64,000 bases of DNA. Origin: Streptomyces violaceusniger Tu 4113. GTDB lineage: Bacteria > Actinomycetota > Actinomycetes > Streptomycetales > Streptomycetaceae. The DNA is taken from assembly GCF_000147815.2 (NCBI RefSeq), contig NC_015957.1, positions 5,084,001 to 5,148,000 of the forward strand, read 5' to 3'. The position numbers and the translations under genes were made by a program. Position 1 is the stretch's first letter, and every line of letters begins with the position of its first letter. Positions 25,501 through 53,313 of this stretch are shown piece after piece. The notes beneath the pieces were generated by a model. It was given only the letters and a program-made list of their open reading frames with translations. It had not been told where the DNA came from and did no database searches.

Positions 25501-25639
25501 CCGCGCTGCCGCACTCTGCCACAACGGGCCTTACTCCATGGTGTGGTTCGGGCTGAACGGGGGGCTGGCACGCTCGTGGCCGGTGGGGGCCGGGGCATCT
25601 TCGCGGTGGGCCGTGTCCCGCACCACCGGCATGGTGGCC

Positions 25640-25830
25640 GGCGCGCAGCGGTGATCGTGGTGCGGTGGTGATCGTGGTGCGGCGTGGCAGGAGTGGTTCC
25701 TCCAGGACGCCGGCGTGGCGCGGGTTTTCCGGCGTGGTGGTCTCTGGGAGCTGGGGTGGGGGGTGTTGCTGGCCCCCTTGGGGGTGCTGGGGTTGGCCCC
25801 CGGTGTGGCGGGGGTGTTGGCGCCATGGCG
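25640..25830. repeat. G-rich low-complexity tract
   Basis: Runs such as GGGGGGTGTTG, TTGGGGGTGCTGGGGTTGG and GGCGGGGGTGTTGG alternate over about 190 bases on the plus strand just before the desaturase gene. No protein-like frame is evident. The clustered G runs could form quadruplexes or simply be decayed sequence. Confidence 0.4.
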
Positions 25831-25901
25831 CAGCATGACCCCTGGTCCGTACGTTTGAGCAGGTCAGTGCGTTGTTGGCCGATTCAGGACCGGAGTCTTC
25901 C

Positions 25902-26954
25902 ATGTCTGAGACCGTCGCGCTGTCTGTGTCCACCGCACCCGGTGGCGCCGCCGGGCAGCGGGGGAGTGAGTTCACTGCGCTGCTGCGGAAGGTCAGGGGG
26001 CGGGGGCTGTTGGAGCGTCGCAGGGGCTGGTACGCGCGGATGATCGCCGTGAACCTCCTGGTCCTGGCCGCGGTGGTGACGGGGTTGGTCCTGGCCGGGG
26101 ACACCTGGTGGACGCTGTTGTTGGCTGTGCCGCTGGCCGTCTGGTCTGCCCGCACCGCTTACGTCGGCCACGATGCCGGGCACGCCCAGATCGCCGTGGG
26201 CCGCCGGGCGAATCGCGCTATCGGACTGCTCCACGGCAATCTGCTTCTGGGCATGAGTTACGCGTGGTGGAACGACAAGCACAACCGGCACCACGCCAAC
26301 CCCAATCACATCGAGAAGGACCCGGACGTCGGCGCCGGCGCGCTGGTGTGGACTGCGGAGCAGGCGGCTGTGCGCCGCGGGTTCGCCCGTTGGGTCACCC
26401 GCCACCAGGCGTGGCTGTTCTTCCCGATGCTGCTGCTGGAAGGCATTGCCCTGAAGGTGAGCAGTGTGAAGGACCTGTGGCGGCAGCCGGTGGGCGGGCG
26501 GGCTGTGGAGGGCGTGCTGCTGGCGCTGCATGCGGCCGGTTACGGTGCCCTGCTGCTGACCTGCCTGCCGGTGGGGAAGGCGGTGGTGTTCGGGCTGCTT
26601 CATCAGGCGCTTTTCGGGCTCCATCTGGGAATGGCTTTCGCGCCCAATCACAAGGGCATGGAGATGCCCGGCCCGGCGGGGGAGCGGTGGGGTCATCTGC
26701 GCCGTCAGGTCCTGACTTCGCGTAACGTGCGGGGCGGGCCGGTCACGGACTGGCTTCTGGGCGGGCTGAACTACCAGATCGAGCACCATCTCTTCCCGAA
26801 CATGCCCAGGTGTCACCTTGGGCTCGTACAGCCTCTGGTGCGGGAACACTGCCGCAGTCTCGGGCTCCCGTATGCCGAGACCGGGCTGCTGGACTCCTAT
26901 CGGCAAGGGCTGCGGCACATGCACGCGGTCGGCGGTGCGGCCCGGCCCGAGTGA
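25902..26954 (+). CDS. Membrane fatty-acid desaturase
   Basis: A 350-residue integral-membrane desaturase of the acyl-lipid/acyl-CoA (delta-6/DesA3-like) type. The three histidine boxes binding the di-iron centre are present: VGHDAGHAQIAVG, NDKHNRHHANPN and NYQIEHHLFPNMPR (the Q-x-x-H-H form). Two hydrophobic hairpins surround them (for example MIAVNLLVLAAVVTGLVLAG and a pair after VEGVLLALHAAGYGALLLT). It introduces a double bond into fatty acyl chains, using a ferredoxin or similar donor. It stands alone, flanked by decayed genes; an ATG at 25902 starts the normal N-terminus. Its 3' end runs to the edge of a decayed transposase on the other strand. Confidence 0.92.
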   Translation: MSETVALSVSTAPGGAAGQRGSEFTALLRKVRGRGLLERRRGWYARMIAVNLLVLAAVVTGLVLAGDTWWTLLLAVPLAVWSARTAYVGHDAGHAQIAVGRRANRAIGLLHGNLLLGMSYAWWNDKHNRHHANPNHIEKDPDVGAGALVWTAEQAAVRRGFARWVTRHQAWLFFPMLLLEGIALKVSSVKDLWRQPVGGRAVEGVLLALHAAGYGALLLTCLPVGKAVVFGLLHQALFGLHLGMAFAPNHKGMEMPGPAGERWGHLRRQVLTSRNVRGGPVTDWLLGGLNYQIEHHLFPNMPRCHLGLVQPLVREHCRSLGLPYAETGLLDSYRQGLRHMHAVGGAARPE

Positions 26955-26989
26955 GAGCGCGGGCGGCTGCGGGGACACCGGAGCCGGTC

Positions 26990-28105
26990 CGGGCGCGTGG
27001 CGGCCGGCGCGGGGTGGACGGGGTGACCACCACGGCGCCGTCCTCGTCCGCCCGGACGTGGCCGGCGGGTTGAGCGATGACCTGTCCGGGCTGGAGACCC
27101 GCTCGGGTGCAACGGGTCACGCAGCCCGTCGTGTTCGCGGTTTTGCCACGTGGCGGCAAGCCATTCGTCGAGAAGTTCCTGCAGCTGGGGCAGCGACCAG
27201 AGCGGTTGCTTGTCCAGGTTGCGGCCGCGGTGGTCGGCACTGCGTCCGGTGTGGCCCGCGCGGCGAACTGAGCGAAGAGCGTGCCGACGGAGTCAGGCAT
27301 CTTCTCCACGTGCCCCTTCTGGAACGGGGACGCCGTGTGCGTGGGCTGGAAGTCGGTCTCCAGGAAGCGGCAGGACGCCTTGACGTGCCGGGGAGATGAA
27401 CGCTTTGCCGTGATCGCAGACGATCATCTCTGGCACGATCACCGGCCTCGCGGCAGCGTGTTCCAGGCGTTCATCGATGTCCAGCAGCCGCCGGTGCGGC
27501 AGCACCGATCGCGACATCCGCAGGGCGTCGGCCCGGCCCGGCCGCATCAGTTCCGGGGTGACCGTGCGGGCCGGCGGCACGCTTGTGTCGACCGCCTTCG
27601 TGGTGGGCCGCAGCACCGCTGCGGTCACCGTCCTGGTCGTGACATCGACCATGCCAGTTGAGTTCGACTTTTCCGACCCCCCCGTCATCGAGGCGGACCA
27701 GCACGTCCAGCGGAGTGGAGTCGATCTGCACCACCTCGCCCGGCGCGAACACCGTCCACTGCCCGAACGGGGCCTTCGCCCCGTGGGCGCGCGAGCGCCG
27801 GTCGCGGGCCGTTCCCGAGACGGGACTGCCCTGCGACAGCTTGGCCAGCAGTCGGCAGAGCGTTGCTCGAGACGGCAGCCCAGCCGTCTCACCCTTCTCC
27901 CGCAGGATTTCGCCGGTCCGCCAGATGATGTAGGTGCCGGTGCGGGTGGAGTCGTCCTCGCCCTCTTTGATCGCCTTCCGCATGGCCTCGACCACCGCGT
28001 CATCGACTGTGCCGGACTGCGGCTTCCTGCGCACCGGGCGCCGGTCGGCCGGCCCCAGCAGCCCTTCGGCCTGGTAGCGACGGCGGAAGTTGCCGACCGT
28101 ACTCC
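26990..28105 (-). pseudogene. Mu/TnsB-type DDE transposase, decayed
   Basis: One transposase can be pieced together from three frames on the minus strand. It begins with TVGNFRRRYQAEGLLGPADRR and VDDAVVEAMRKAIKEGEDDSTRTGTYI, then the catalytic region AHGAKAPFGQWTVFAPGEVVQIDSTPLDVLVRLDDG with the first Asp. A frame change follows, then GMVDVTTRTVTAAVLRPTTKAVD and VIVPEMIVCDHGKAFIS with the second Asp. After another change come the remnants GHVEKMPDSVGTLFAQF and further pieces of the C-terminal domain. At least three frameshifts make it inactive. The 5' end is cut by the junction with a GNAT remnant near 28105. Confidence 0.8.
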
Positions 28106-28287
28106 TGCACGCCGAGCTCCTCAAGGCCATCGCCCCGGAGTGGGCGTCCTTGCTCGCGCTGCCCTCCAACCGGCGCGGCCAGGACCTGTACGCCCGGCTC
28201 GGCTAGGAGTATGCCGGCCCCTACCGCAACACCGCCGACGGCCCCGAGTTCGGCCTGCTCCTCCTCAAGGTCGAGGACGCAGCCTGA
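28106..28287 (+). pseudogene. GNAT acetyltransferase, C-terminal remnant
   Basis: About 60 codons on the plus strand read LLHAELLKAIAPEWASLLALPSNRRGQDLYARLG, then an in-frame TAG, then EYAGPYRNTADGPEFGLLLLKVEDAA and a stop. LYARLG*EYAG is the familiar end of a GNAT acetyltransferase with the expected Tyr or Phe replaced by a stop. The 5' part is missing, cut at the junction with the decayed transposase. Confidence 0.6.
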
Positions 28288-29346
28288 CCCCCTCCAGTAC
28301 CGATGTTCACGAGAGGCGCTTCACCGCGGGCCGGGCGGCCCCTGCCGGTCCAGCTCCTCCTGGAGCCAGTCAGGCAGCTCAGCGCGGTCGGCCGGAGGGC
28401 TGGGGCTTGCAGTGTGCTGCGCGGAGAGCTCCCGCCCGGCACGGGGAGCTGGGTGGGAGCGGTACCGTCCCCTCCAGCCGTTCTTCAGCACAAGGGGACA
28501 GCGTTGCCTTCCAGGGAGGTCACCGGGCCCAATGAGCACACCGCCCTTCTGCGCACGCTCATCCAGTAATCGGCCGGTTCCAGTGGTGCCGGTGCCTTTC
28601 AGGCCTGACGGTCAGTGGAGGCACTCCCACTCGACGATCATCGCGCGCAGGTCGGCGCGATCGGTCCGTACCGGAAGGCTCGTGCCCGGCCGGACCTCGG
28701 CGGCGTGGTTGAACGGCACGCGCACGTGCCGGGTGACCCAAACTGGACTCTCTGCATGGCTCCTACTCGACCCCGAAGAGCCCCGTGAGTTCAGCGAAAC
28801 TGAAGCCTGTTCAGCGGGAACTCGCGGGTCGGTCCGTGTGCATCAGCTGGGAGTGTCGGCCGGTTCGGTGGGAACGCGGGAGTTCATAGCTGCGAGGTGG
28901 CGGCCTTCCACGTGAACTGCGAGTGCTCGTGCCGCGGCTTCCTGGCCGACATCGCTGGCGGTCGCATAGAAGTTGAGGCCGAGCTCCTCCAGCGCTTCGG
29001 GAGCAACTCGTGCAGGGTCGTAGCCTGCTTCGGCGCAATGATCGAGCCAACTTTGCGATGTGATGGCGCATTTGTGGCTACATGCTGCTCACAGCCCCAT
29101 AAACCTGACACCGCTGTGACCTGCGAGATCGCCAAAAGCCTGCGAAGAAAGTTACAGGAACCAGCGAGGGATTCACTGGAACCCGCGACATTTTCGCAGG
29201 TGAGAGGCGTATTGAGGATTTCTCTCGCTGCCGGAAAGCAGCTAGAGCCGGGCTCGTCGCCTTCGTCGGATGGATCGACGGGACACCCGAAAACACGGCC
29301 GGGTGTCCTGCGGATCTCTTCGCCGTGCAGCAGGAGGTGGCACGCG
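28288..29346. other. Stretch with no supported gene
   Basis: About 1 kb between the GNAT remnant and a small gene at 29347. A short minus-strand segment ending ELPDWLQEELDRQG near 28325-28380 looks protein-like but has no plausible start. The rest shows lower GC around 29.0-29.25 kb and no family-like sequence on either strand. Confidence 0.4.
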
Positions 29347-29493
29347 ATGCCTGAGAGTCAGCAGTCGGCCCGGGAGCCCGAGTCGGAAAGCGCAGATCAG
29401 GCGGAGCGTCGCAAGAACCGGCGCCACGAGCTGTGGCTCAAGGTGCTGGACGTGGCGGGGAAGGTTGCAGGCAAGGCCCTCGACCAGCGGTAA
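29347..29493 (+). CDS. Small charged protein, 48 residues
   Basis: An ATG preceded by a near-perfect AGGAGG ribosome site (eight bases upstream) opens a 48-residue protein starting MPESQQSAREPE. It has an acidic N-terminal half and a basic C-terminal helix ERRKNRRHELWLKVLDVAGKVAGKALDQR that could be amphipathic and bind membrane or nucleic acid. The frame is open far upstream, but that part looks random. A strong hairpin 18 bases after the stop supports a short independent transcript. I do not recognise the family. Confidence 0.55.
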   Translation: MPESQQSAREPESESADQAERRKNRRHELWLKVLDVAGKVAGKALDQR

Positions 29494-29505
29494 CCCCCGG
29501 ACATG

Positions 29506-30669
29506 TCAAAGGCCCGGAGGAAGCCGGGCCCTGACCATGCGATGCACGCAATGAGTGGGTTCGTCCCGAGTTCTCTGGTTTGCAGACCAGAGGACAGCGT
29601 ACTGATATTGCCCCACCTTGATCCTGCTGGTGGGGTTGCGAAAGATCAGCCCGGCCCGCTTGGCCCAGGCGAACAGCGAACGCAGGGCGACGAGTTGATC
29701 GTGGCGCTGGCGCCCGTGCAGCGTCTGGGCGTGGGCGAGGACGTCGTCGCGGGTCACCTCTCGCAGGTGGTCGTAGCGGTTCGACCACTCCAGCAAGGCT
29801 GGTCGGACCCGGTTGAGGTGGAGCCAGACCGTGCCTGATTGCCGCGGGAGGCTGCGGGGACCGCCATCGCGTAGGACTCGGGTCCACCGCTCGGCCTCCG
29901 AGCGGATGCCGGGTGCGAGGCCCTCCAGTCTCTCGGCGAGCCAGCGTTCGAAGGAGGGTTCGCTGTCGTCCTCGAAGATCCCCATCTCCTCCAGGACTGT
30001 GACTGTGTGGAGGACGGGAAGATCGCGGGTCCGGAGCAGGGCGAAGATCTCGCTGTGTCGGATGACGTCGCCCTCGACGTACCCGGTGAGGACGAGGGCC
30101 AGGCCGCGGTTGACGGCGAAGCGGATGTCGCGTCCCCAGCCCCGGGCCTCGGCAAGCTGGTGAGCGAGGTACTTCGCCCAGGCCAGCCAGGGGCTGACCA
30201 GGTCGGCGACGGCCGGGTCGAGTCGGCTGTAGTCCCGCGGGATCTGCTCGAACAGCGGCAGCTGCCTCCAGCCAGGATTCGGCCTCCAGGCCGGTGCGGG
30301 CGGCGGCTTGCACGAGGCACCCCACCGTCCTCCGTGCGGCCGAGGGGTGGGTACCGATCCGTGGCGGTGGTGCATGCCCATGAAAAACAGCTGGTGGTGC
30401 CGGACGGCGCCGAGCCGGTCCCTCACGTCCGCCTCGTCTGCTTGTTGGCCGGCGACGGCCTTGGCACTGAAGCGGGCCTGGCACCAGCACAGACGGCAGT
30501 AGTCCCACTTCAGCGGTTGGACACGGCGGCAGCCGACGCAGGCGGCTGTCTTGTGGCTGCGGCCGAACATGTAGCAGGCAGGGCAGAGGCGTCCGCTGAA
30601 GTTCCCCCAGGCCAGACAGCTGCCGCAGGAGTCGGTGGGCTTGCGATGGCCCTTCGGATACCGGCTCAT
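29506..30669 (-). pseudogene. Zinc-ribbon site-specific integrase, C-terminally truncated
   Basis: The reading frame gives 387 residues of a large integrase-like family. The N-terminus has treble-clef zinc ribbons: CGSCLAWGNFSGRLCPACYM, CVGCRRVQPLKWDYCRLCWCQ. The core-binding-like segment is LEWSNRYDHLREVTRDDVLAHAQTLHGRQRHDQLVALRSLFAWAKRAGLIFRNP. Right after TSRIKVGQ the sequence becomes random and ends, so the tyrosine-recombinase-like catalytic half is missing. A second, longer copy at 49.9-53.3 kb keeps counterparts of the lost part. Its start overlaps the XRE stop (ATGA), making it the third gene of a tightly coupled trio. Confidence 0.75.
29511..29530 (+). terminator. Hairpin GGCCCGG-N6-CCGGGCC
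   Basis: A perfect seven-base-pair GC stem with a six-base loop lies 18 bases after the stop of the small gene. There is no U-tract, as is common for actinobacterial terminators. It also overlaps the 3' end of the convergent integrase gene and may serve both directions. Confidence 0.5.
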
Positions 30670-30995
30670 GCTGGCGGCAGCGACCGGCCGTCGCGGCGCT
30701 TGGGGACCACCGCCGGGGCGACGGTTCTGGAGCCGACCGCGGCTTGGCCGACATCCTCTCGCCCGGGGCGGTTGACCTTCTCCGGCTCGGGAATCAGCAG
30801 GTCACCGATCTCGCAGCCGAGCACGACGCAGATGACATCCAGGTCCTCCAGCTTGAGGGAGACCGGCTGACCGGACCACAGCCCGGACATCTTCCCCGCC
30901 GAGATCACCAACCCGTGTTCGGCCAGGCTTCGTTGGAGCTCGGACGCCTTCCAGATACCCTTGTTCGCGGCGGTCAGCCGCAGGTTCCACCTCAT
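30666..30995 (-). CDS. XRE/Cro-type helix-turn-helix protein of the integrase trio
   Basis: A 109-residue DNA-binding protein starting MRWNLRLTAANKGIWKASELQRSLAEHGLVIS. The helix-turn-helix lies at about residues 16-62 with KMSGLWSGQPVSLKLEDLDVICVVLGCEIGDLLIPEP, the Cro/C1-like ending. It overlaps both neighbours by four bases, so all three proteins are probably made together. It may regulate the recombinases or guide them to a site. A related XRE gene with the same partner lies at 49.6 kb. Confidence 0.8.
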   Translation of the reverse strand: MRWNLRLTAANKGIWKASELQRSLAEHGLVISAGKMSGLWSGQPVSLKLEDLDVICVVLGCEIGDLLIPEPEKVNRPGREDVGQAAVGSRTVAPAVVPKRRDGRSLPPA

Positions 30996-32071
30996 CGGAC
31001 CAGCCCTTCCAGCCGCTTCGCGGCCCGCTCGGTCCCGGCGACCCAGGCGTCCTCGACCCGGGTCTGCTGGACGTGGACGTATCGCATCGTCGTGGCGATC
31101 CAGGAATGTCCCAGAACCTCCTGAATTGCGAGCAGGTCCAGCCCGTTCGCATAGAGCTGGGATGCACAGAAATGCCGCAGGACGTGCGGCGTCAGCTTCT
31201 CGCCCCAGCCCGGCAGATGCGCCTTGGCCGCCCCCTTGAGCCCGCCGCGCAGGGCGTCGTCGCCCACCCGGCGCGAGGAGCCGTCGGCGCATCTGCGCTC
31301 GGAGGGGAACAGCGGGGCGCCGGGGCGGGTGTGGTCGTCGTCGAACTGGCCCCACACGTCCTCGATGAACCATCGCAGCGTGCGGTCGGCGCCGTTGATC
31401 AGCGGCACCATGCGCTCGCGCGGCCCAGATCCGCGGGCGCCCTTGCCGTGGCGGACGTGGAGCTTGCCGAAGCGGCCCAGGTCCCACTTAATGTCGGCCA
31501 AGTCGAGCTTGCACGCTTCGCTCACCCGCAGGCCGACCTGTGACATCAGCTTCGAGGCCGTGTAGTTCCGGGCGGTCGGGGCGAACTTGCGGCAGGTGGC
31601 CAGCTCGCCGCCCCAGCCGGTGAACAGTGTCTCGACCTCCGGCTCGCTCGGAGGGATCCGCAGCTGGGCGTCCTTGGCGCCTCGCGGCCGGTTCATCTCG
31701 TCGATCGGGCACTCGACTACCCGGCCGGTCATCCGGTGGATTTCGACCTTGTGCCGCAGCTCCAGGAACATGAAGTACGTGCTCAGTGCCTGTGACCGGC
31801 CCAGCCGAGTGCCGCTGGGCGAGTGCCGCAGCACCTTCCCGAAGTACGCGTCCGCGTCGGCAGGCTCCATGTCCCACAGGGGCCGGCCGAACCAGGTCCT
31901 GATCTGGTCCAGGTGCCCGACGTCCCCGCGGATCGTGCCGTCCGCCAGGCCGGCCGAGGCCCGCGCGAGGACGAACCCGGACAGCACGTCGGTCTCGAAC
32001 CGCTCCAGTTCCTCCGCCGTCGCGGGCGCCCAGCGCTCACGCAGGTCCCGTACGACTGCCAGCGCCGCCAA
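30992..32071 (-). CDS. Tyrosine recombinase (phage-type integrase)
   Basis: A 359-residue tyrosine recombinase with all catalytic residues visible: Arg182 in GLRVSEACKLDLADI, Lys210 in RHGKGARGS, His296 and Arg299 in PHVLRHFCASQL, His322 in GHSWIATTMR and the nucleophile Tyr331. A SAM-like core-binding domain occupies the first 115 or so residues. It is the first gene of a leftward three-gene unit (recombinase, XRE, zinc-ribbon integrase), each overlapping by ATGA. No adjacent tRNA or obvious attachment site is seen. It appears intact, although its third partner is truncated. Confidence 0.9.
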   Translation of the reverse strand: MAALAVVRDLRERWAPATAEELERFETDVLSGFVLARASAGLADGTIRGDVGHLDQIRTWFGRPLWDMEPADADAYFGKVLRHSPSGTRLGRSQALSTYFMFLELRHKVEIHRMTGRVVECPIDEMNRPRGAKDAQLRIPPSEPEVETLFTGWGGELATCRKFAPTARNYTASKLMSQVGLRVSEACKLDLADIKWDLGRFGKLHVRHGKGARGSGPRERMVPLINGADRTLRWFIEDVWGQFDDDHTRPGAPLFPSERRCADGSSRRVGDDALRGGLKGAAKAHLPGWGEKLTPHVLRHFCASQLYANGLDLLAIQEVLGHSWIATTMRYVHVQQTRVEDAWVAGTERAAKRLEGLVR

Positions 32072-32529
32072 CCCGAGCCTCCTCGCCTTCGGCCCGACTG
32101 CGGAGGTCGGACACGGTGAGAACGCTTCAAGAATCCCGAAGTTACGTCACAAGACCACAGAGCACACGAAGGAGGAAGAACCCCCTGGCCACAGGGGCAA
32201 GGACTCAGCGGGGCTCAGGGGAACTCCCGGGATGTCGCACACCATGAGGTCGGCCCGGGTCCCGCTGGCCGCCGCGCACGCGACGACGGGGCTGCACACG
32301 CTGCTCGGCGTGATCTCCGCCAGCCAGGACGCGGTCGCTACCGGAGACGTGGACACGCTGGCGGCGCAGGCGGGGCAGCTGGAGGCGGCCCGGGAGCCGT
32401 TGCAGAACGCGATGAACCCCCCTCCTGCCCCCGGGACAGCGCCGGCGGCGGTGTGGACGGCGTGGCCAGCCATGACACGAGTTGGTCGATCGCTATGCTC
32501 GGCTTGGTATGAACGGGGTGGGGGTAGGA

Positions 32530-32913
32530 ATGGCTTCCGATGTAGAGCTGACGATCACGACGGGCACGGCGAAGTTCGCTCTGGAGGACCAGCGCTGGTT
32601 AGATCAAGTAGCGACACTGCACGCCGCCCTGCGCGGGGAGGCCGGGACAATATCCCGGCGAGGTGTCCCGGAGCCAGGCGCGAAGGGTGCTGTGGAGGCC
32701 GTGATCCTCGCCCTGGGCTCGTCCGGCGCGTTGACCGCTGCGGTGGCGTGCTTCCGGACCTGGCTGGCGCGGGACAAGACACGGGCCCTGACGGTGACGT
32801 GGACCGATGACCAGGGCGCCGAGCAGACGCTGACGGTCACCGGCAACAACGTCGATCAAGCATCATTCCAGGCCCTGGCGGAGGGCGTCGGCAGGCGTCT
32901 CGGAGCCGACTGA
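32530..32913 (+). CDS. Effector-associated constant component EACC1-like protein
   Basis: A 127-residue protein that fits the EACC1 pattern: an N-terminal strand VELTITTG, LHAALRGEAGTISRRG, a hydrophobic glycine-containing helix region AVEAVILALGSSGALTAAVACFRTWLARDKTRALTVTW, then a C-terminal beta segment AEQTLTVTGNNVDQASFQALAEGV. EACC1 proteins are described as constant partners of variable effectors in bacterial conflict systems. The ATG at 32530 has a purine-rich leader; an ATG at 32509 is an alternative. Its stop overlaps the caspase gene start (TGATG), so the two are translated together. Confidence 0.8.
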   Translation: MASDVELTITTGTAKFALEDQRWLDQVATLHAALRGEAGTISRRGVPEPGAKGAVEAVILALGSSGALTAAVACFRTWLARDKTRALTVTWTDDQGAEQTLTVTGNNVDQASFQALAEGVGRRLGAD

Positions 32914-34352
32914 TGCCGGCCGACCCGCACTACCGCGCGTTGCTGATCGGAAACGCTACTTTCCCTCGCGACCCCCATGCGCTGCTGACTCTGCGCGGAC
33001 CGTTGGTCGACATCGAGAAACTCGGACAAGCACTGACCGATGACAAGGTCGGGCTGTTCCCTCCTGACAACGTCCTGTCCCTGCCGGACAAGGGAGTTCA
33101 GGAACTGCGGGAAGAGCTAGACCAATTCTTCACCACTGCAGGGCGCGAGGACGTGCTGCTGCTGTATTACAGCGGCCACGGCCAGCTCGATGAACACGGG
33201 CGCCTGTACCTGTGCGCCGGCGACACCACGCCGGACCGGCTCCGCGCCACGACGCTGAGCGCCGCGGAGATCAACAACATGATCGACAGCTCAGCCGCCG
33301 CGACCACTATCATCGTGCTCGACTGCTGCCACAGCGGCACGTTCAAGACAGGCGCCAGCCTGGCCTCTCCGGTGGCAGGCAAGGGCCGGTACGTCCTGGC
33401 CAGCAACAGGGCCACGCAGCTCGCACGCGATGCCGAAGTAGAGGGGCAGCCCAGCCCATTCACCGGAATGCTCGTGCACGGCCTGCGGCACGCCCAGTCC
33501 ACCAGCTACCTCACGGTCCGTGAGCTCTACGACCAGGTGCACCACTGGATGACCAAGAGCACCCCCCTGCCCCCACAGCTGAGCTTCGCCGGGGAGGGCG
33601 ACGTCGCCATCGCCCGCCGAAAGAAGAACCGTCCTCGGCCAAGACCCGCGATCCCCCCAGCGCCTGACCTCCTGCGCGCCCCCCTTGCCGGCATCAGGAA
33701 GAAGCCGACTGCCGAACCCGCCACCCAGACGCCCTCCCCGCGTCACCTCGAATCCGACCCGCCGCCGACCACGCGCGGATCAGTGACACTCATCGAAGGG
33801 CGCGGAAGCACAATCTGGGAGTGGGCCGGCAACTGGGGCTATGCCGGCCCCTGGAGCATCCTGTTGCTGGTGATACCCGCGTACTACCAGTTTTTGGCGT
33901 ACCACATGGTGCCTACTGTGTGGGACTTTCTCGGCATAAAGTTTAATGGCCCGGACGAAAACCTGTCCGGGGGGATCGGGCTGCAAGCCGTACAGCTCGT
34001 TCTCTTCCTCACCCTGATATTTGGTCCCTGTACGGTCGTCCTGGGGGTCATTGGTGGACTCATAGGAGTTTTGGCGTCGCCGTTGAGGCTGCAGGTCGAT
34101 GGTGTCGCCCTCTCCAAACTCGGGCGCGGCGGGAAGGTGGTGGACCGAAGCTGGGACGACATCACCAAGGTATACGTGAAGGCCGGCACGAAGGCACTCA
34201 CCGTGCGCATCGCTCCGGGGACCAAGCAAGCAGACTTCGACAGCTGGGATATTCGCCCCGCTAACCCGCTGGCGGCGAGAGAGTTCATCCGTCTCGTCCG
34301 GTTCTATGCCTCCTCGAAGTTCGAAGACCCAAAGCCGGACAGCAGCAAGTAG
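32913..34352 (+). CDS. Membrane-anchored caspase-family (C14) peptidase
   Basis: A 479-residue protein with an N-terminal caspase-like peptidase domain (about residues 5-235). The catalytic dyad is His89 in LLYYSGHG and Cys139 in VLDCCHSG. A basic/proline-rich linker follows (236-300), then two hydrophobic segments (about 312-333 and 356-388), then a beta-rich C-terminal domain (390-460, LRLQVDGVALSKLGRGGKVVDRSWDDITKVYVKAG) resembling bacterial PH-like domains. The order suggests a cytosolic protease tethered to the membrane. With the overlapping EACC1 gene it forms a two-gene conflict module. I infer that it cleaves host or invader proteins on infection. The activating signal is unknown; no STAND NTPase is encoded nearby. 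Confidence 0.88.
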   Translation: MPADPHYRALLIGNATFPRDPHALLTLRGPLVDIEKLGQALTDDKVGLFPPDNVLSLPDKGVQELREELDQFFTTAGREDVLLLYYSGHGQLDEHGRLYLCAGDTTPDRLRATTLSAAEINNMIDSSAAATTIIVLDCCHSGTFKTGASLASPVAGKGRYVLASNRATQLARDAEVEGQPSPFTGMLVHGLRHAQSTSYLTVRELYDQVHHWMTKSTPLPPQLSFAGEGDVAIARRKKNRPRPRPAIPPAPDLLRAPLAGIRKKPTAEPATQTPSPRHLESDPPPTTRGSVTLIEGRGSTIWEWAGNWGYAGPWSILLLVIPAYYQFLAYHMVPTVWDFLGIKFNGPDENLSGGIGLQAVQLVLFLTLIFGPCTVVLGVIGGLIGVLASPLRLQVDGVALSKLGRGGKVVDRSWDDITKVYVKAGTKALTVRIAPGTKQADFDSWDIRPANPLAAREFIRLVRFYASSKFEDPKPDSSK

Positions 34353-34925
34353 GCCCCGGATTCCGCCCAGTCGTGCCGGGGCCCCTTGTGAGAATGCTCG
34401 CCGTGCCGACGCCCCGTCCCGGGGCCAGCTGTTGGAAACGCGCTCAGTGCTGCACCTGGTGACCCTCGGCGCCGAAAGCGGCGAGTACGGCAAGATTCAT
34501 ACCAACTGGGGCCTTGAGTACGGCGCCGTCACCACTGCCCAGATCATCCGCGGCTGACCCCTGCCCTCACCCGCGGCGCCCTGCCCCGATTCAGACACCC
34601 GGGGGCAGCCCTTGGGACAGCAGCAGTCCGCCCTTCAGGGTGATGCCGCGGCGATCCGGTCGGAGTATGTCGCGGTGCGCCTTGCGCCCGGCCGGGGTGG
34701 AGCTGTCGTCGGCGAGGGGATGCACTGCTCCAAAGCGGCATGGTGGAGCGCGAGCGAGGCGGTGACACGCACCGAGTAGCCCTGCCCCTGGTGCTCACCG
34801 CCGAATGCATCGCTCCTACCCCAACACCAAGATCAAGGAGTTCCGGAGGACAGGCCGATGGCCCGAACGCCGGCGGGCACCACGATGAGCCTCAGGCAAG
34901 CAGGCCCTGTGAGAGGCCGGGGTGG
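34353..34925. other. Stretch with no supported gene
   Basis: About 570 bases between the caspase gene and the IS3 left end. One plus-strand frame ends with a protein-like run (TLGAESGEYGKIHTNWGLEYG, stop near 34557), but it has no acceptable start or ribosome site and is at best the tail of a lost gene. Nothing else is recognised. Confidence 0.4.
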
Positions 34926-34994
34926 GGTGAAGCTTCCCCTGGTGACTGGACACCTGGAGACTGGAACATGAGGTTCCGGAGGAAGTAGTGCCAG

Positions 34995-35293
34995 GTGGGT
35001 AGTCAGTACTCGAAGCGGTATTCGGAGGAGTTCAAGCGGGACGCGATCGCGTTGGCCCGTTCCTCCAGCAAGACGATCACGGAGGTCGCGCGGGATCTGG
35101 GGTGAGCCCTGAGAGCCTGCGCGGCTGGGTCAAGCGTGACCGGATCGACCGTGGTGAGAGCGGGGCGGGTGAGCTGACCAGCGCCGAGCGCGAAGAGCTC
35201 AAGCAGTTGCGCAGGCAGAATGTCGAGCAGCAGAAGACGATCGAGATCCTGAAAAAAGCTGCGGCCTTCTTCGCCCAGGACAGCGACCGGTGA
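34995..35293 (+). pseudogene. IS3 transposase OrfA, frameshifted
   Basis: The first frame reads VGSQYSKRYSEEFKRDAIALARSS followed by KTITEVARDLG and a stop at 35103. The next frame continues immediately with VSPESLRGWVKRDR, then ELKQLRRQNVEQQKTIEILKKAAAFFA, the OrfA leucine zipper. The break falls in a run of four Gs where a fifth G would restore one OrfA of about 100 residues with its N-terminal helix-turn-helix. It is either a real one-base deletion or a homopolymer sequencing error. Confidence 0.8.
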
Positions 35294-36188
35294 ACGAGGT
35301 CTGCCGGTTCATCGCTGCGGAGAAGGCCACGTATCCGGTGGCCCTGCCGTGCCGTGCCGTGCCGTGTCCTGGCTGTGGCCCGCTCCTTATGCCTGGCTGG
35401 AGGCCGAGGAGGCGCGGCAGGAACGCGAGCGCGCGGATGAGGCCCTGGCCCACGAGATCACAGTGATCCACCTCGCTTCGAAGGGTGCCTACGGTGTCCC
35501 GCGCGTGCACGCCGAGCTGCGGCGACTGGGCCGGACCATCAACCGCAAGCGGGTTGAGCGGATCATGCGCGAACGCCGGATCACCGGTGTCACGCGCCGA
35601 AAACGCCGCTCGCTGACCCGCCCCGACCGGCAGGCACGGCCGGCCCCAGACCTGATCGGGCATGATTTCACCGCCACCCGGCCAGGCACCCGGCTGGTCG
35701 GGGACATCACGTACCTGCCCACCCGCGAGGGCTGGCTGTACCTGGCCTGCTGGCTGGACCTGGCTACGCGCGAGGTGGTCGGCTACGCGATGGCCGACCA
35801 CCACCGCGCCTCCCTGGTAGTCGACGCGCTGCGGACGGCCCACGGCCGGGGCGACCCATAACCCGGCCGCATCATGCACAGCGACCGCGGTAGCGAATAC
35901 ACCTCGGCTGAATTCCGGGCCGAGATAAGCAGGTTGGGACTTCGGCAAAGCACCGGCCGGACCGGCTCATGCTTTGACAACGCCGCAGCCGAGAGCTTCT
36001 GGGCCGTACTCAAGGAAGAGATCGGCATCCGGCTCTGGCCCGACCGGGCCACCGCCCGCGCCGAGGCCTTCGCCTTCATCGAGACCTTCTACAACCGGCG
36101 CCGCCTCCGCAAGCACCCTCTCTTCGGGTACCTCACACCCCACGAGACGCGACAGCGGTTCCGTAACGACCACGTACTCGCAGCGTAG
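35290..36188 (+). pseudogene. IS3 transposase OrfB (rve integrase core), frameshift plus stop
   Basis: OrfB starts at a GTG overlapping OrfA (VNEVCRFIAAEKATYPVAL), then loses its frame in a short tandem of TGCCG units near 35345-35368. The main part runs in another frame: GAYGVPRVHAELRRLGRTINRKRVERIMRER, the first catalytic Asp in TRLVGDITYLPTREGWLYLACWLDLATREVVGYAM, then an in-frame TAA at 35859-35861. It continues with the second Asp in IMHSDRGSEYTS and the Glu in NAAAESFWAVLKEE. Two independent defects make the transposase inactive. Confidence 0.85.
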
Positions 36189-36208
36189 AAGAAGAGTGTC
36201 CAGGACCA

Positions 36209-47366: not shown

Positions 47367-48911
47367 ATGAGCGATGAGCAATTCGACAGTGTGGAGGCAT
47401 TGTTGGAGGAGGCACGGCTGACGGCGCGTATGCCGGACCCGGCCGAGCGTCTGCGGCTGCGTCAGGCAGCCGGTCTTTCCCGTGCCCAGGTGGCGGCAGC
47501 GGTGGGGGTCGGTCGGCAGACGGTCGCCAACTGGGAGGACGGCACCACCGATCCGCAGCCGCCGGGACGCTTTAAGTACCTGCGGCTGCTGGAGGGCCTG
47601 GCCCAGATCCACCCCGCCCCCGCCCCGGCCCAAGGACCCGCCGAGACGGCCGCCCCGAGTGGCGCCCCGGTCGCAGGATCCGCTGTTCCGGAGACCGCGT
47701 GGGGCCCCGACGGGCTGGCCGTGCAGGGCGAGGGCTCCTGTCTCCGCTGCGGCGTTACGACGCCCTATAAGGCCACCGACGGCCGTTCCCTGCACCCCGG
47801 TGCCATGTGCCAGCCCCCAGCCGCCGTGGCGCCGCCTCAGGCCGCCGCCACGCCCGCCCCGGTCAGCGCACCCTCACCGCCTCCCGCGCTGGCTCCCTCG
47901 CGGCCGCAGCGCCGGGCGAAGGCCGCGGCCCGCGCGCAGGCGGAGACCGCCGGCCTCATCGGCCAGGCCGTGCACGAAGAGCTGGAACGCGCTCAAGGCG
48001 ACGCCGACGCCGCGATGAAGGCCCTGGTCAAGCGTGCCATCCCGGACGTCATGCGCCTGTTCGAGGAAACCCGGGCCACCGCCCGCTATACCTACACCGC
48101 CTACCCGGCCCTGCCCGACATCCTCAAGAAGCCCTCGAAGAAGGAGCCGGACCAGATCTGGGAGGCCCGCCCCAACTTCCACCACCCCGACTACTCCCTC
48201 AAAAGCCGTGGGAGCATCGCGGTCACCGCCCTGGACGTCAACGCCGCCTACCTCTCCGCCCTCAAAGTCTGGCTGCCGATCGGGAAACTGGAACACTCCA
48301 CCGGCACGGACGGCGTGGACCCCAAGCGCTCCGGAGTCCACCTGATCACCCCCTCACCCTGGCACCACCCCCACCTGCCCGACCCCCTCGGCGACCGCGA
48401 CCAGCCCGGCCCCGTATGGGTCACCAACGCCACCCTGCGCCTCCTGCTGCGCCTATCCGGGCCGAAGCACGGGCTTCTCGACCCGCCGGTCATCCACGAA
48501 TCGTGGACGTCCGGCGCGACCGAGAATTTCCTGGACGCCCTGCGAAAGACGCTCACTGCCACGCGGGAGACGGCTATCTCCGAGCACGACACCATCACTC
48601 TGGAATACATCAAGGCGATGTACTCGAAGTTCATCTCCACGATGGGCGAGTCGGTTCATAACCGCGAGATGGTGCGCCCGGACTGGATGCACATCATCCA
48701 CAGCCAGGCGTACGCCAACCTCTGGGGCAAGGCATACAAGGCCCACCAGGCCGGTCTGGACGTCATCGCCATGATGGGCACCGACGAGCTGCACGTCACC
48801 GGCGACTGGCGGCAAGTCTTCCCCGAGGGACGGGGCGTCGCCCAGATGAAGATCAAGCACAGCGAGGCCAAGGCGTCCGGTGAGTACACCGTCGGCACGG
48901 CGGCCCGCTGA
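47367..48911 (+). CDS. XRE/zinc-finger/polymerase-like protein, candidate telomere-associated protein (Tap/Tac-like)
   Basis: A 514-residue protein. Residues 25-75 form an XRE helix-turn-helix (LRQAAGLSRAQVAAAVGVGRQTVANWEDGT). Residues 125-148 form a CxxC...HxxxxC zinc knuckle (SCLRCG, LHPGAMC). A proline/alanine linker leads to a C-terminal domain (about 200-500) with features recalling family B polymerases: ALDVNAAYLSAL (motif A-like, Asp290), YIKAMYSKFISTMGES (motif B-like), and MMGTDELHVTGD (motif C-like, Asp473). HTH plus polymerase-like architecture, and an overlapping small partner gene, resemble the Tap and Tac proteins that recruit terminal protein to linear Streptomyces telomeres. 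This identification is by pattern, not by alignment. Confidence 0.65.
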   Translation: MSDEQFDSVEALLEEARLTARMPDPAERLRLRQAAGLSRAQVAAAVGVGRQTVANWEDGTTDPQPPGRFKYLRLLEGLAQIHPAPAPAQGPAETAAPSGAPVAGSAVPETAWGPDGLAVQGEGSCLRCGVTTPYKATDGRSLHPGAMCQPPAAVAPPQAAATPAPVSAPSPPPALAPSRPQRRAKAAARAQAETAGLIGQAVHEELERAQGDADAAMKALVKRAIPDVMRLFEETRATARYTYTAYPALPDILKKPSKKEPDQIWEARPNFHHPDYSLKSRGSIAVTALDVNAAYLSALKVWLPIGKLEHSTGTDGVDPKRSGVHLITPSPWHHPHLPDPLGDRDQPGPVWVTNATLRLLLRLSGPKHGLLDPPVIHESWTSGATENFLDALRKTLTATRETAISEHDTITLEYIKAMYSKFISTMGESVHNREMVRPDWMHIIHSQAYANLWGKAYKAHQAGLDVIAMMGTDELHVTGDWRQVFPEGRGVAQMKIKHSEAKASGEYTVGTAAR

Positions 48912-49501
48912 TGGCCGGCACCAGCGGCCGGTGGAGGGACCTGGGCGCCTTCCGCGCCCGAGGCGTCCACGGGGGAGTGGCCCTGGCCGAAGGCATCGAC
49001 CGGATGGTCACCGGCATCGAGTCCCCCGTCGGCTCCGAGCGCGGTCTGGCCGCCCGCCTGCGCTACCTCACCGCCAGCAACGCCGGCTACGAGGCCATGG
49101 ACCGCGCGGGCATCCACGTCAGACCCCGCACCCTCATCGCCTGGCTGGCCGGGGAACAGACCCCCAGCAAGGCCAACCTCGCCCGCCTGGACGCCGCGTA
49201 CTGGGACCTGCGCCGCCGCAGCGTCGCCGCCGGCCTCAAGCGTCGGCTCAACAACCACGGCCGCGGAACCCGCATCGAGATCGACCCCGTCGACCAGTCC
49301 CGCGTCCAACATGGACACCAGCGCGACCTGCGGACCCGCAACATCAACGTACGCGGCGCCGTCTGGGACCGCGCTGTCGACGCCTGGATCACCGAAGACA
49401 CGCAGGAACTCGAAGCCATCTGGGACGACATCATCCAAAGCGCCCTCGGCACCGATTGGGACGCCTACACCCACGTCTCCTCCATCGGCTGGGCCGCCTG
49501 A
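48911..49501 (+). CDS. Candidate terminal protein (Tpg/Tpc-like)
   Basis: A 196-residue protein whose start overlaps the Tap-like stop (TGATG). An N-terminal HTH-like segment (about residues 70-100: GIHVRPRTLIAWLAGEQTPSKANLARLDAAYWDLRRR) precedes a basic region (AAGLKRRLNNHGRGTRIEIDPVDQSRV) and an acidic helical end (ITEDTQELEAIWDDIIQSALGTDWDAYTHV). Size, order (HTH, basic block, acidic tail) and the overlapping Tap-like partner match Streptomyces terminal proteins, which are covalently linked to telomere 5' ends through a hydroxyl residue. Direct similarity to classical Tpg is weak by eye, so it may be a non-archetypal type. Alternatively it is a transfer or partition protein. Confidence 0.55.
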   Translation: MAGTSGRWRDLGAFRARGVHGGVALAEGIDRMVTGIESPVGSERGLAARLRYLTASNAGYEAMDRAGIHVRPRTLIAWLAGEQTPSKANLARLDAAYWDLRRRSVAAGLKRRLNNHGRGTRIEIDPVDQSRVQHGHQRDLRTRNINVRGAVWDRAVDAWITEDTQELEAIWDDIIQSALGTDWDAYTHVSSIGWAA

Positions 49502-49596: not shown

Positions 49597-49932
49597 ATGG
49601 CCGTGAAACTGCACCTCAAGCATGTCAGCGTCGCCGGACCGCGGGATGTTCTCCACCACCGACCTCACCCGCCGCTGAAGGAACGCGGCATCACGCTGTC
49701 GTCGAGCCAGGTCTACCGGCTCGTCGTCGAGCGACCGGAGCGACTGAGTCCGAAGATCCTCATGGCCCTGCTCGACATCCTCGACTGCACCATGGACGAC
49801 CTCATCGAGCCCATCGCCGTGGCCGGCTCCGCGACGAAGCCGAAGGAGGCTGCTGCGGGCGGGACTTCGGTCTCCGAAGGAGTCGGTGACCTGCGGCCCC
49901 GGCGGGCCCGGATCAGCGGAGTCGAGCGGTGA
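49597..49932 (+). CDS. XRE-type helix-turn-helix protein, second integrase-associated copy
   Basis: A 111-residue protein. The core LKERGITLSSSQVYRLVVERPERLSPKILMALLDILDCTMDDLIEPI is a Cro/C1-type domain with the typical ILGCTxxDL-like end. The preceding stretch PRDVLHHRPHPP is odd: the alternative frame encodes a more natural GMFSTTDLTRR. So two compensating indels seem to have altered residues about 14-27 while keeping the end in frame. Its stop overlaps the GTG of the zinc-ribbon integrase, the same arrangement as at 30.7 kb. Confidence 0.7.
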   Translation: MAVKLHLKHVSVAGPRDVLHHRPHPPLKERGITLSSSQVYRLVVERPERLSPKILMALLDILDCTMDDLIEPIAVAGSATKPKEAAAGGTSVSEGVGDLRPRRARISGVER

Positions 49933-51485
49933 CCGGTCTTGCCGGGGAAGTCCTCGCGGATCCGGTCGGCCTGGCCGTGCGTCTGGTGGGGGAACGTCGA
50001 AAAGCACCTGCCCGCCGAGCAGGTCCGCGACATCGTCCTCGGGGTCGAACGCGCACGCGTCGGCCGCCGCAGCCTCGCCCAGGCTCTGCACGACGACCCG
50101 TCGCTGTTGCGGACCGGGCAGCCGCCGGCGCCCTACTGCGTCGCCAAACTCCTCATGGCCCTGCACGACGCCGGTGCCCAGGACATCGCACTGCCCCGCT
50201 GCGGCGAGTGCGGCCGCGCATGCCGCTACGTCGGCAGCGGCACCGGAGGAGGACGGTGGGGATGCTCGCCCTGCTTCGACAAACCGGCCGTCTGCGCGGG
50301 GTGCCACGAAGAACGACGCGTCACCAGCCGGGACCGCAACGGGGAAATCCCGTTGCGCGAACTGCCCCGGCACCGACGGCGATCCACTTCAGGAGCTCAC
50401 CGAACTCGTCACGGTCCTGGATCCTGCCCTCGATGCCAATGCGGTCCTGGCCGCGCTCGGACGCGCCACGGTCCGGCCCGCCGGGCAGCGTCGCCTGGCC
50501 TGGGCCGTCCTCGCTCGCCCCGAGCTGCTGACCGGCGCTGGTTACGAAGCCCCCGCCCCGGCCGTCCTGCGGTTCATCAACGAGCTCGCCGAGGCCGGGG
50601 CGACCAAGGTCGTCCGTCCCGCCTGTCCGCGCTGCCACGAAGTGAAAGCGCTGTCCAAGTTGGCGGAGGGCAAGAGGATCTGCCGGGCCTGCTCTGCCCA
50701 CCACGCGGCTGTCCCCTGCTTCGGCTGCGGCGCCGTGCGCGAGCCCGCCACCCGCGACGCCGAAGGCCGGCCGTTGTGTCCGAACTGCATGATCAGGCAG
50801 CCCGATAACCTGGAGAAATGCGTCGGCTGCGGTCGGCGCAAGCCCGTTGCGAACCGGCTGCCCGACGGCCCGCGCTGCCAGAACTGCCGGCCCCGGATCA
50901 CCGCGGAGTGCGGCATCTGCGGGCGGACAGCACTCTGCGACATATCCCGGGCCACCGGCCAGCCCTGGTGCGACCGCTGCCAGCAACGGTGGGTGGCCTG
51001 CAGCGGCTGCGGCACCGTCGCCCAGGCCCGCAGCGGCACCTGGGAGGCGCCGTTGTGCGCGAAGTGCACCAACCCCGACCCAGACTTCTGGGGCCGCTGC
51101 CCGGTCTGCACCACCACCTGGCAGCTGAGCACCCGCCCCTGTCGGCGATGCGTCCTCGACCAGCGAGTACGTGACCTCCTAGGCGACGACACTGGGGCTC
51201 TCCGCCCCGAACTCGCCCCGTCCCACGAGGCATTGACGACCGCCGAACGCCCGGACGCCGCCTTCGCTTGGGTCTCCCGCTCGAAGGCCCGAGACCTCCT
51301 GGAGCACATAGGACGCGACGAGCGGCCCGTCACCCATGGGGTTCTCGACGAACTGCCCCCGGGCAAAGTGCTGGCTCACCTGCGCAGTGTCCTGGTCGCG
51401 ACCGGTGCCCTCGCGCCCCGCGACGAACGGCTCATTGCCCTGGAGAAATGGAGCGCCGAAACGGTCCAGGCCCGCACTGATCTAG

Positions 51486-52426
51486 GGCGTGTTGCGAAAG
51501 TTGATCTTGCTCGTTGTTGATCATGTCTTGTGGGACGTGGGGATTTGACGAATGGCCAGTGGGCCCGGCTTGAGCCGCTGCTGCCGCGGGGCATCAAGTC
51601 GGGCCGTCCGCAGGTGTGGACGCGGCGGCAGCTGATAGACGGCATACGGTGGCGGACCCGCACCGGTGCTCCCTGGCGTGATGTGCCGGAACGTTACGGG
51701 CCGTGGGACCGGGTCTATGACCTGTTCCGGCGCCGGCAGCGAGACGGAACGTGGGCTCGGATCGTCATGCAGCTCCAGGCCGAGGCCGACGCGAAGGGCC
51801 TGATCACCTGGGACGTGAACGTCGACTCCACGGTCTGCCGTGCCCACCAGCACGCCGCTGGGGCGGCGAAAAGGGGGACCTTCAGAAGGAACCGCCCGGC
51901 GGGATCATCGTCGAGCCGGCCGACCACGGGCTCGGACGCTCCCCGGGGCGGACTGACCAGCAAGGTTCACCTCGCGGCCGAGCAGGGCCAGAAGCCGTTG
52001 TCGGTGGTGATCACCGCGGGGCAGCGGGGCGATTCCGCTCAGTTCGAGCCTGTCCTGGAAGCGATCCGGGTGCCCAGGCGTGGCCGGGGACGGCCACGCA
52101 AGAGGCCGGATCGAGTGCGCGCCGACAAGGCGTACGACTCCCGCAAGAATCGCTCCTACCTGCGCAGACGCGGCATCAAAGCGACGATACCGGTCCCTGC
52201 GGACCGCGTCCGCAACCGGCAGAAGCGCGGCTCGCGCGGCGGACGGCCGCCGAGGTTCGACAAAACCGACTACAAGCATCGGCACGCGGTCGAGTGCGGA
52301 ATCAACCGACTCAAGCGGCACCGCGCGGTCGCCACGAGATACGACAAACTCGCCGTCCGCTACGAAGCAACCGTGCTGGTCGCAGTCCTCAACGAGTGGC
52401 TGTGACCAGCACTTTCGCAACAGACC
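51486..52426 (+). mobile_element. IS5-family (IS427-like) element at CTAG target
   Basis: Terminal repeats start GGCGTGTTGCGAAAGT on the left and GGTCTGTTGCGAAAGT (complement) on the right. The palindromic target CTAG flanks both ends (51482-51485 and 52427-52430), as expected for the IS427 group. Deleting the element and one CTAG joins ARTDL directly to AERRIL in the same frame of the host integrase gene, confirming the boundaries. Confidence 0.92.
51530..52405 (+). CDS. IS5-family transposase, internally scrambled
   Basis: A 291-residue DDE transposase. The N-terminus [22 protein letters not shown], the first Asp in [19 protein letters not shown], the second in [22 protein letters not shown], and the Glu in [41 protein letters not shown] are present. 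Between them about 25 residues ([19 protein letters not shown]) are unlike the family. The expected [10 protein letters not shown] segment is encoded in the neighbouring frame, so a pair of compensating indels has rewritten this loop. Whether the enzyme still works is open. Confidence 0.8.
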
Positions 52427-53313
52427 CTAGCCGAGCGCCGGATCCTGCACGGCTACGCGGTCTGGCACCACATGCGCCGACTCCGACGACGCCTCGGCGA
52501 AGGCCACACCACCCGGCTCCAAGGACCTGAACGTGCGCTGTCACGTCACCGCAGCCGACAACTTCCTCACCTGGCTCACCGGCGAAGGACTCACGCTGGG
52601 AACCTGCACCCAGCCGGACCTGGAACGGGGGATGGCCGATGCCACGGTCAGCTACCGCGACGAGACCGGCCACTTCGTCCGCTGGTCGGTACAGCACCGG
52701 CATGCCCGCGGGCTCACCTACGGCACCGTCCGATGGACCGGCCCGCAGGGCACCGTCGACAGCGAGAAGCGCTGGGCCGGCGCCCGGCGCCTCCTCAACG
52801 ACGACACATTGCCGACCCCGGACCGCGTCGCCGGACTGCTGCTGATCCTCTACGCGCAGAAGATCTCCATCATCAGCCAACTCGCCGTCGACGATGTCCA
52901 CTTCGACGGCGACACCGTCACGATCACGTTCGGCAGCTCGCCGATCGTCCTCCCCGCACCGCTGGCCAGCCTGGTCCGCGAGCTCATCGTGACCCGCCGC
53001 GGCAAGGCCAAGATCGGCACTCCAGACGACGTCGCATGACTCTTCCCTGGAGGGCGCCCCGGACAGCCCCTCGGCGACGACCGGATCGGCGAGCGCCTCC
53101 ACAAGATCGGAATAAGGCCCAAACAGGGTCGACAGCACTGTTCACCCTCGCCACCGACCCCCCCGCCGCGATCCTCGCCCGGATGCTCGGCGTCCACATC
53201 AAGGTCGCCGTCCAGTGGCAGAAAGCATCAGCCGGGGACTGGGCCGCCTACGCCGCCGATGTCAGCCGCCGCAATGCATCGCCCCAACCGGTCCACGAAC
53301 CAGGAGCGACACC

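Follow-up and report, generated by a model that had tools for sequence, protein, structure and literature searches.

A TAP/TP gene pair with a predicted phi29-like polymerase domain as candidate end-patching system of Sg2247-type Streptomyces telomeres

The window analysed here is a stretch of 64,000 nucleotides from Streptomyces violaceusniger Tu 4113. It carries two overlapping genes for a putative telomere-associated protein (TAP) and a small terminal-protein-like product (TP), whose parts are collected in Table 1. The overlap is a single base, the A common to the TAP stop codon TGA (48909-48911) and the TP start codon ATG (48911-48913). A first-pass annotation had described overlapping frames of 514 and 196 residues and had placed an XRE helix-turn-helix, a zinc knuckle and polymerase-like motifs A (Asp290) and C (Asp473) in the larger protein. 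Both frames are present, and each of these parts held up: the helix-turn-helix by two Pfam matches, the knuckle by the conservation of its three cysteines and one histidine, and the motifs by their invariance in 36 sequences and by the fold search described below. The helix-turn-helix that it also assigned to the small protein stands only in part, with a weak profile match to the corresponding region of Tpg and no match in NCBIfam or Pfam.

Table 1. The TAP/TP pair and its parts, in positions of the window.
Feature	Position	Strand	Evidence or reading
TAP, telomere-associated protein, 514 aa	47367..48911	+	Intact ORF; proposed protein-primed family-B DNA polymerase with N-terminal DNA-binding part
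XRE/Cro-type helix-turn-helix of TAP, residues 30-76	47454..47594	+	Pfam HTH_31, E 2.8e-8; HTH_3, E 2e-7
Zinc-knuckle-like segment of TAP, Cys125-Cys128-His143-Cys148	47739..47810	+	At least 90% conserved in a 36-sequence alignment
C-terminal polymerase-like domain of TAP, residues 193-514	47943..48908	+	
Motif A-like TALDVNAAY of TAP, residues 287-295, including Asp290	48225..48251	+	D290, N292 and Y295 invariant (36 sequences); aligned with phi29 polymerase DVNSLYP
Motif B-like KAMYSKF of TAP, residues 416-422	48612..48632	+	K416, Y419 and K421 invariant (36 sequences); aligned with phi29 polymerase NSLYGKF
Motif C-like GTDELHVTG of TAP, residues 471-479, including Asp473	48777..48803	+	T472, D473, E474 and H476 invariant (36 sequences); aligned with phi29 polymerase DTDSIHLTG
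TP, terminal-protein-like gene, 196 aa	48911..49501	+	ORF; proposed protein primer

Across the 36-sequence alignment, motif A follows the pattern LDxNxAYLSA and motif C the pattern TDELH. Both genes bear the mark of purifying selection. Between the two copies in this genome, dN/dS was 0.25 for TAP and 0.54 for TP; against the copy on a Streptomyces antimycoticus plasmid, the values were 0.19 and 0.32 (custom Nei-Gojobori script).

The C-terminal half of TAP is predicted to adopt a family-B polymerase fold. A Foldseek search with the TAP model ranked phi29 DNA polymerase first, and a model of the archetypal Tap domain, built from a separate alignment, did the same. By TM-score the resemblance to phi29 polymerase is low, at 0.30-0.33 (by query length) for whole TAP and 0.36-0.40 for the Tap domain; the TAP model itself reaches middling confidence (pLDDT 66.7, pTM 0.45). 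Motifs A, LPxG, B and C of TAP align in register with those of phi29 polymerase. The structural match spans, among the phi29 matches, at most residues 133-548 of that enzyme. The motif C aspartate is, in the TAP and Tap models alike, the last residue ahead of the second hairpin strand. TAP has the motif A aspartate and the second motif C aspartate (D290 and D473), the catalytic positions of family-B polymerases.

Profile comparisons and motif details temper this picture. Profile-profile alignment of TAP with phi29-like polymerases gave E 0.0012 at a probability of 19%, a score equalled by none of 100 shuffles. The same hhalign comparison was not significant for archetypal Tap (31/100 shuffles), and a merged TAP and Tap profile did less well than TAP alone (E 0.015, motif A only). 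Searches of NCBIfam, Pfam, PHROGs and PDB sequences returned no polymerase match for the C-terminal half. Motif C reads GTD in TAP and HTD in some relatives rather than a complete DTD, the first aspartate of phi29 polymerase being replaced by glycine or histidine. Motif B departs from K-x3-NSxYG, with the lysine aligned to Leu412 and the asparagine to Lys416. Where phi29 polymerase has its N-terminal 3′-5′ exonuclease domain, TAP residues 1-192 comprise a helix-turn-helix, the zinc knuckle and a linker. TAP is moreover a cellular protein, whereas phi29 polymerase comes from a phage. The phi29 polymerase is the best structural match of both the TAP and Tap domains, and the use of a separate protein as primer may, by analogy, be common to TAP/TP and the phi29 system.

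Relation to the archetypal telomere proteins Tap and Tpg is apparent from the same operon order, with an N-terminal helix-turn-helix in the first product and a terminal-protein gene downstream, and from two profile matches. The NCBIfam model NF047542 (telomere_Tap) matches TAP residues 5-192, helix-turn-helix included, at E 2.4e-23, and the 82.8 bits of this match lie below the membership cut-off of 600 over the 695-position model. The C-terminal domains align in hhalign at E 3e-10 over 208 columns that cover motifs A and B. These matches bear out the first-pass reading of a non-archetypal Tap/Tpg-like pair; the shared C-terminal domain is, on profile evidence, domain homology with archetypal Tap and not membership of its family. 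The local profile match ends ahead of motif C, and in a global alignment Tap Asp348 faces Thr472, one column off Asp473. TAP differs from archetypal Tap in its length (514 residues against 695 model positions), in the telomere class to which TAP/TP is tied, and in a wider family that occurs mostly in genomes without Tap. Archetypal Tpg has as hallmarks a helix-turn-helix, an NLS and a primed residue, Thr114 or Ser114, with an acidic neighbour directly after it. TP residues 25-95 match the helix-turn-helix region of Tpg (E 6e-4, probability 28%), an alignment that equates no TP column with T114. The best-conserved hydroxyl residues of TP are Y52, Y97 and Y186 (69/69), T120 (68/69) and T54 (67/69), T120 being the best-conserved threonine of the C-terminal half.

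Two other pairs are likewise described for non-archetypal telomeres. Tac/Tpc of SCP1 has published priming activity (PMC4513846, in excerpt) and serves a different, SCP1-type telomere. GtpB/GtpA of S. griseus IFO 13350 also forms a TAP/TP operon (PMC7205883, in excerpt). Its Sg13350 telomere is a separate class in PMC8743542.

The TAP family is large and carries other names. Of 8000 scored database candidates, 1721 reach E <= 0.001 against TAP. No name among the matches listed (120 in each listing, names abbreviated) relates to telomeres, and most named relatives among them are called helix-turn-helix or DNA-binding/transcriptional regulators. In an evenly drawn sample of 392 Streptomyces genomes, mostly drafts, 159 encode a homologue of the TAP C-terminal domain (E <= 1e-10) and 140 a family member at E <= 1e-60. 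A class-wide sample yielded matches in 18/394 genomes, 17 of them Streptomyces and the other at E 1.6e-5; the plasmid collection added matches in Kitasatospora, Embleya and Streptantibioticus. Of 95 fetched loci that contain TAP, 84 also include a TP homologue; in the other 11 none was found, and a few of the loci stand for the same place. Archetypal Tap occurs in 276/392 genomes (E <= 1e-50), and the TAP family is found in 86 of the 116 genomes without Tap versus 54 of the 276 with it (Fisher p 3e-24, kinship ignored). On the S. cyaneochromogenes chromosome, family members are located 3.7 kb from each end, and in three further genomes (G064, G346 and G198) they occupy mirror-image places near both ends of a long contig (lengths rounded).

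A candidate DNA counterpart for these proteins is the Sg2247-type telomere, a class of DNA end in the accessible part of the 2021 Streptomyces telomere survey (PMC8743542), for which TAP/TP would be the proteins. As telomere probe we used the terminal 141 bases of pSGZL (CP003988), a plasmid listed in that class by the same source (PMC8743542, in excerpt) and itself a carrier of the TAP/TP pair; this single probe may miss a J1074-like subgroup. It matches 35 plasmid records, with the best place in each at most 30 bases from the record end. The TP search of the plasmid collection covered the best 60 of 152 records: 29 show at least 62% identity, followed by a partial match in CP108532 (70%) and then by a record at 56.3%. 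The Sg2247 telomere is present in 25 of the 29 close-TP records versus none of the 30 at ranks 31-60. Close-TP records without it are CP038146, CP108543, CP101398 and CP120984. The best place of TP falls within 20 kb of an end in 16/29 close-TP records and elsewhere in 13/29. By contrast, an archetypal telomere probe matches 110 plasmid records, and among the best 60 of these only CP101398 has a close TP (with an internal telomere match), besides the partial TP of CP108532. In the plasmid collection, the entries for pSGZL and pPZG101 carry a circular label.

The converse cases, telomere records without a close TP, number 10/35: CP108662, MZ502219, CP109406, CP109414, CP107900, CP109269, CP109284, CP109263, CP108371 and CP108453. 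In the CP107900 strain the pair sits on the sister plasmid CP107901, and in the CP108371 strain, taken as G334, on that genome's own contig C1. Over all 189,563 bases of the S. rimosus plasmid pPZG101 (MZ502219), no homologue of TAP was found. Two of its genes, which hold the position of the pair on the S. antimycoticus plasmid, were tried as TAP and TP and match neither. For these ten plasmids, pPZG101 included, supply in trans has to be assumed.

Genome sequences repeat the association. The telomere was found in 14/392 genomes, all 14 among the 140 with the TAP family, and archetypal Tap (E <= 1e-50) is missing from 9 of the 14. When loci were fetched from 30 of the 159 matching genomes, our own included, 20 genomes formed a clade with TP at 56% or more; 12 of these 20 have the telomere versus 2 of the other 372 (Fisher p 5e-16, kinship ignored). 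Most of the 392 genomes are drafts, so a missing telomere weighs little. The match reaches the end of the locus in 16 of 20 telomere loci, two of which repeat an end shown by another, and stops 6, 12, 13 and 105 bases short in the others. Co-occurrence with a specific palindromic telomere, as looked for in a TAP/TP system, is seen in plasmid records and genomes alike.

The telomere sequences also support a folded end. Alignment of 20 Sg2247 ends is consistent with five hairpins of three-base loops and 35 pairs, drawn manually on pSGZL. Across the aligned ends, 95.6% of the hairpin cells pair and two-sided changes occur at 20 pairs. The covariation score is 0.222, against 0.055 +/- 0.008 in shuffled alignments (0/500 reach it) and 0.050 at most when the partner is slid. 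The loops TCC and TAC are GGA and GTA on the opposite strand, the loops given for the Sg2247 class (PMC8743542, in excerpt). By eye, a similar frame recurs in four other ends (L059, L087, L100 and L103), each close to a TAP homologue with an identity in the range 52-66%. The frame consists of one palindrome, the sequence ACGACGC or something very close to it, and then a CCCTACGGG-like palindrome. The same inspection did not clearly reveal the frame at the ends L094 and L105/L106.

Within S. violaceusniger, the 11.14-Mb assembly has three contigs, C1 (290,055), C2 (191,151) and C3 (10,657,107). The window is C3 5084001-5148000, which puts its gene pair at 5.13 Mb of the 10.66-Mb contig. Since C3 begins at dnaA (by eye) and its antipode falls at 5.33 Mb, the window copy lies close to the point facing oriC, at which the two arms of a linear chromosome would come together. 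Scanning C3 from 5.064 to 5.510 Mb gave no Sg2247 telomere. The first-pass annotation finds support in its reading of a non-archetypal pair with polymerase-like motifs. Its conditional reading of the pair as the mark of a linear replicon and of a new telomere type does not stand in that form: the window copy does not of itself mark the end of a replicon, and the telomere class has already been named Sg2247 (PMC8743542, in excerpt). The palindrome-bearing neighbourhood holds 18 short pairs of inverted repeats across 11 kb, none of them a telomere of the Sg2247 type.

A second intact pair at C1:4750-6893, ~5 kb from the contig end, shares 91% identity with the window copy over whole TAP, 94% over the C-terminal part of TAP and 85% over TP. 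C1 is bounded by a terminal inverted repeat (~310 bp, 90%), and the subtelomeric DNA at its two ends also occurs in pSGZL (79% and 83% over ~110 bases). This makes C1 a probable linear plasmid that lacks its outermost bases; by eye, ~120-160 bases seem absent relative to the S. antimycoticus plasmid, and the telomere probe has no match in the genome. No copy of the C1 end was found on the chromosome. As this genome's linear replicon, C1 is more plausible than the chromosome contig. Beyond the pair itself, a search of this genome with a Tap profile turned up nothing but pieces of archetypal Tap; a linear chromosome with no other system would therefore require the pair. Possible targets of the window copy, working in trans, are C1, chromosome ends missing from the assembly, or both. 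Three other roles for the pair were tried and rejected: a transposase or integrase accessory protein; a toxin-antitoxin system, for which antitoxin-like helix-turn-helix matches were weak only; and a phage repressor, for which PHROGs gave helix-turn-helix matches only.

Several other readings compete with a telomere role for the window copy or for the family. In one, the pair is a genuine end-patching system and the window copy an inert relic of a linear plasmid segment, with the C1 copy doing the work; this has a fair chance, though a less than even one. The flanking DNA is of mixed origin: on the downstream side, 49635-53263 resembles (87%) a plasmid locus that comprises a helix-turn-helix gene and a site-specific integrase, and here the locus is interrupted by an IS5-family transposase gene at 51530-52405; the surrounding 5.064-5.510 Mb also gave no match to the telomere. 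Against decay, both frames are intact, dN/dS between the two copies points to constraint, and a chromosome that is linear, with Tap only in fragments and no other system, would depend on the pair. In another, the pair belongs to the GtpB/GtpA system already described from S. griseus 13350, which has a telomere class to itself; we consider this tentative alternative less likely than not. The accessible text of PMC7205883 gives GtpB/GtpA homologues at ~50% identity and telomeres with GGA loops, and the telomere frame is common to the four ends L059, L087, L100 and L103; PMC8743542 (in excerpt), however, treats Sg13350 and Sg2247 as distinct classes.

Two further alternatives strike us as improbable. 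The pair might be a plasmid-borne replication or regulatory operon that rides on Sg2247-ended linear plasmids and takes no part at telomeres, as the regulator names of most named relatives and the 13/29 records with a non-terminal TP would allow. Such an operon accounts poorly for a predicted polymerase fold with invariant aspartates, for domain homology to Tap, a published telomere protein, for the inverse distribution with Tap over 392 genomes, and for family members set symmetrically near both ends in S. cyaneochromogenes and three other genomes. Equally hard to credit is another fold for the C-terminal half, drawn towards phi29 polymerase by structure prediction and search. The middling model, the low TM-scores, the modest profile-profile match and the one-column shift of Tap motif C would fit it; the agreement of two models from separate alignments, the kept register of four motifs, the shuffle result and the shared placement of the motif C aspartate ahead of the second strand speak against it, as does the polymerase activity in print for Tap and Tac (PMC4513846, in excerpt).

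We favour TAP/TP as very probably the end-patching pair of Sg2247-type Streptomyces telomeres, with TAP as a small phi29-type family-B polymerase and TP as its primer. Computed support comes from the pair and its conservation, the telomere association, the hairpins, the predicted fold and motifs, and the homology to Tap; binding, priming, the primed residue and catalysis are ascribed to TAP/TP by analogy. In the priming model, taken over from Tap/Tpg (PMC4513846 and PMC3572947, both in excerpt), internally started replication would leave a 3′ overhang that folds into a row of hairpins. TAP would bind the folded telomere end together with TP, and a TP hydroxyl would be placed in the Asp290/Asp473 active site. 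TAP would then add the first nucleotides, a short oligonucleotide, to TP, leaving extension to other polymerases. TP would thereby become covalently joined to the 5′ DNA end.

Viruses and selfish elements are the main known sources of protein-primed family-B polymerases, so the upkeep of bacterial chromosomes by such enzymes would be a clear case of domestication. We think it likely that Tap, the TAP family and a third branch, which is joined to a DnaB-like helicase and is located a few kilobases from chromosome ends, make up one family of cellular protein-primed family-B polymerases, and that the TAP family serves Sg2247 telomeres and most of the sampled Streptomyces genomes without Tap. If so, linear bacterial chromosomes would be finished by domesticated relatives of phage phi29 and tectivirus polymerases. 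We found no earlier statement of this link between Tap and polymerase domestication in the open-licence literature; subscription journals fell mostly outside that scope, so a prior description is possible. The proteins that patch Sg2247 ends were called elusive in the 2021 survey (PMC8743542, in excerpt), and a study of S. albus J1074 presupposed a pair that was 'yet to be identified' (PMC3937824, in excerpt). TAP/TP now provides a named candidate pair for these ends, and the fold and motifs, obtained from predicted models in a wholly computational analysis, supply residues to mutate.

A distinct but related telomere variant lies at or near contig ends at three loci, L123 (genome G037), L126 (G166) and L130 (G125, contig C37), where a CTCCTCCGGAGAC palindrome is followed by ACGACGCG. 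All three genomes carry homologues of the telomere-associated protein TAP at 57–59% identity, ∼1.4 kb from the end in G125. These pairings suggest that TAP branches and telomere variants shift in concert.

Other TAP relatives (∼1010–1044 aa; 52% identity in the polymerase domain) carry an N-terminal DnaB-like helicase domain, matched by Pfam DnaB_C at E ∼1e-22. In the complete S. cyaneochromogenes chromosome, the fusion gene lies ∼4 kb from both ends (loci L105 and L106). An additional family, at locus L156 (G221, contig C15), matches the TAP polymerase domain at ∼29–34% in open frames of 844–872 aa. In the L156 frame the positions of motifs A and C each still hold an Asp, and the frame, judged by eye, starts with an ATPase-like region. 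Comparably weak matches occur in G011, G024, G094 and G291.

The S. violaceusniger Tu 4113 genome also holds three partial matches to archetypal Tap, two of them containing stops. A 10.7-kb segment of the window recurs ∼91 kb further on, inverted and 99.95% identical. A locus with an HTH gene and a site-specific integrase, common to several Streptomyces plasmids, occupies window positions 49635–53263 and is interrupted by an IS5-family element.

Coordinates of TAP relatives, archetypal Tap matches and the repeat
Feature	Location	Strand	Remark
TAP relative fused behind DnaB-like helicase domain	L106:7916-10945		S. cyaneochromogenes chromosome end; DnaB_C match
TAP relative fused behind DnaB-like helicase domain	L103:7814-10945		DnaB_C match
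Partial archetypal Tap match	G000:C3:5480531-5481223	-	
Partial archetypal Tap match	C1:20086-20367	-	
Partial archetypal Tap match	C2:137571-137966	+	
Second copy of 10.7-kb stretch	C3:5210979-5221683		inverted relative to window 25503-36208
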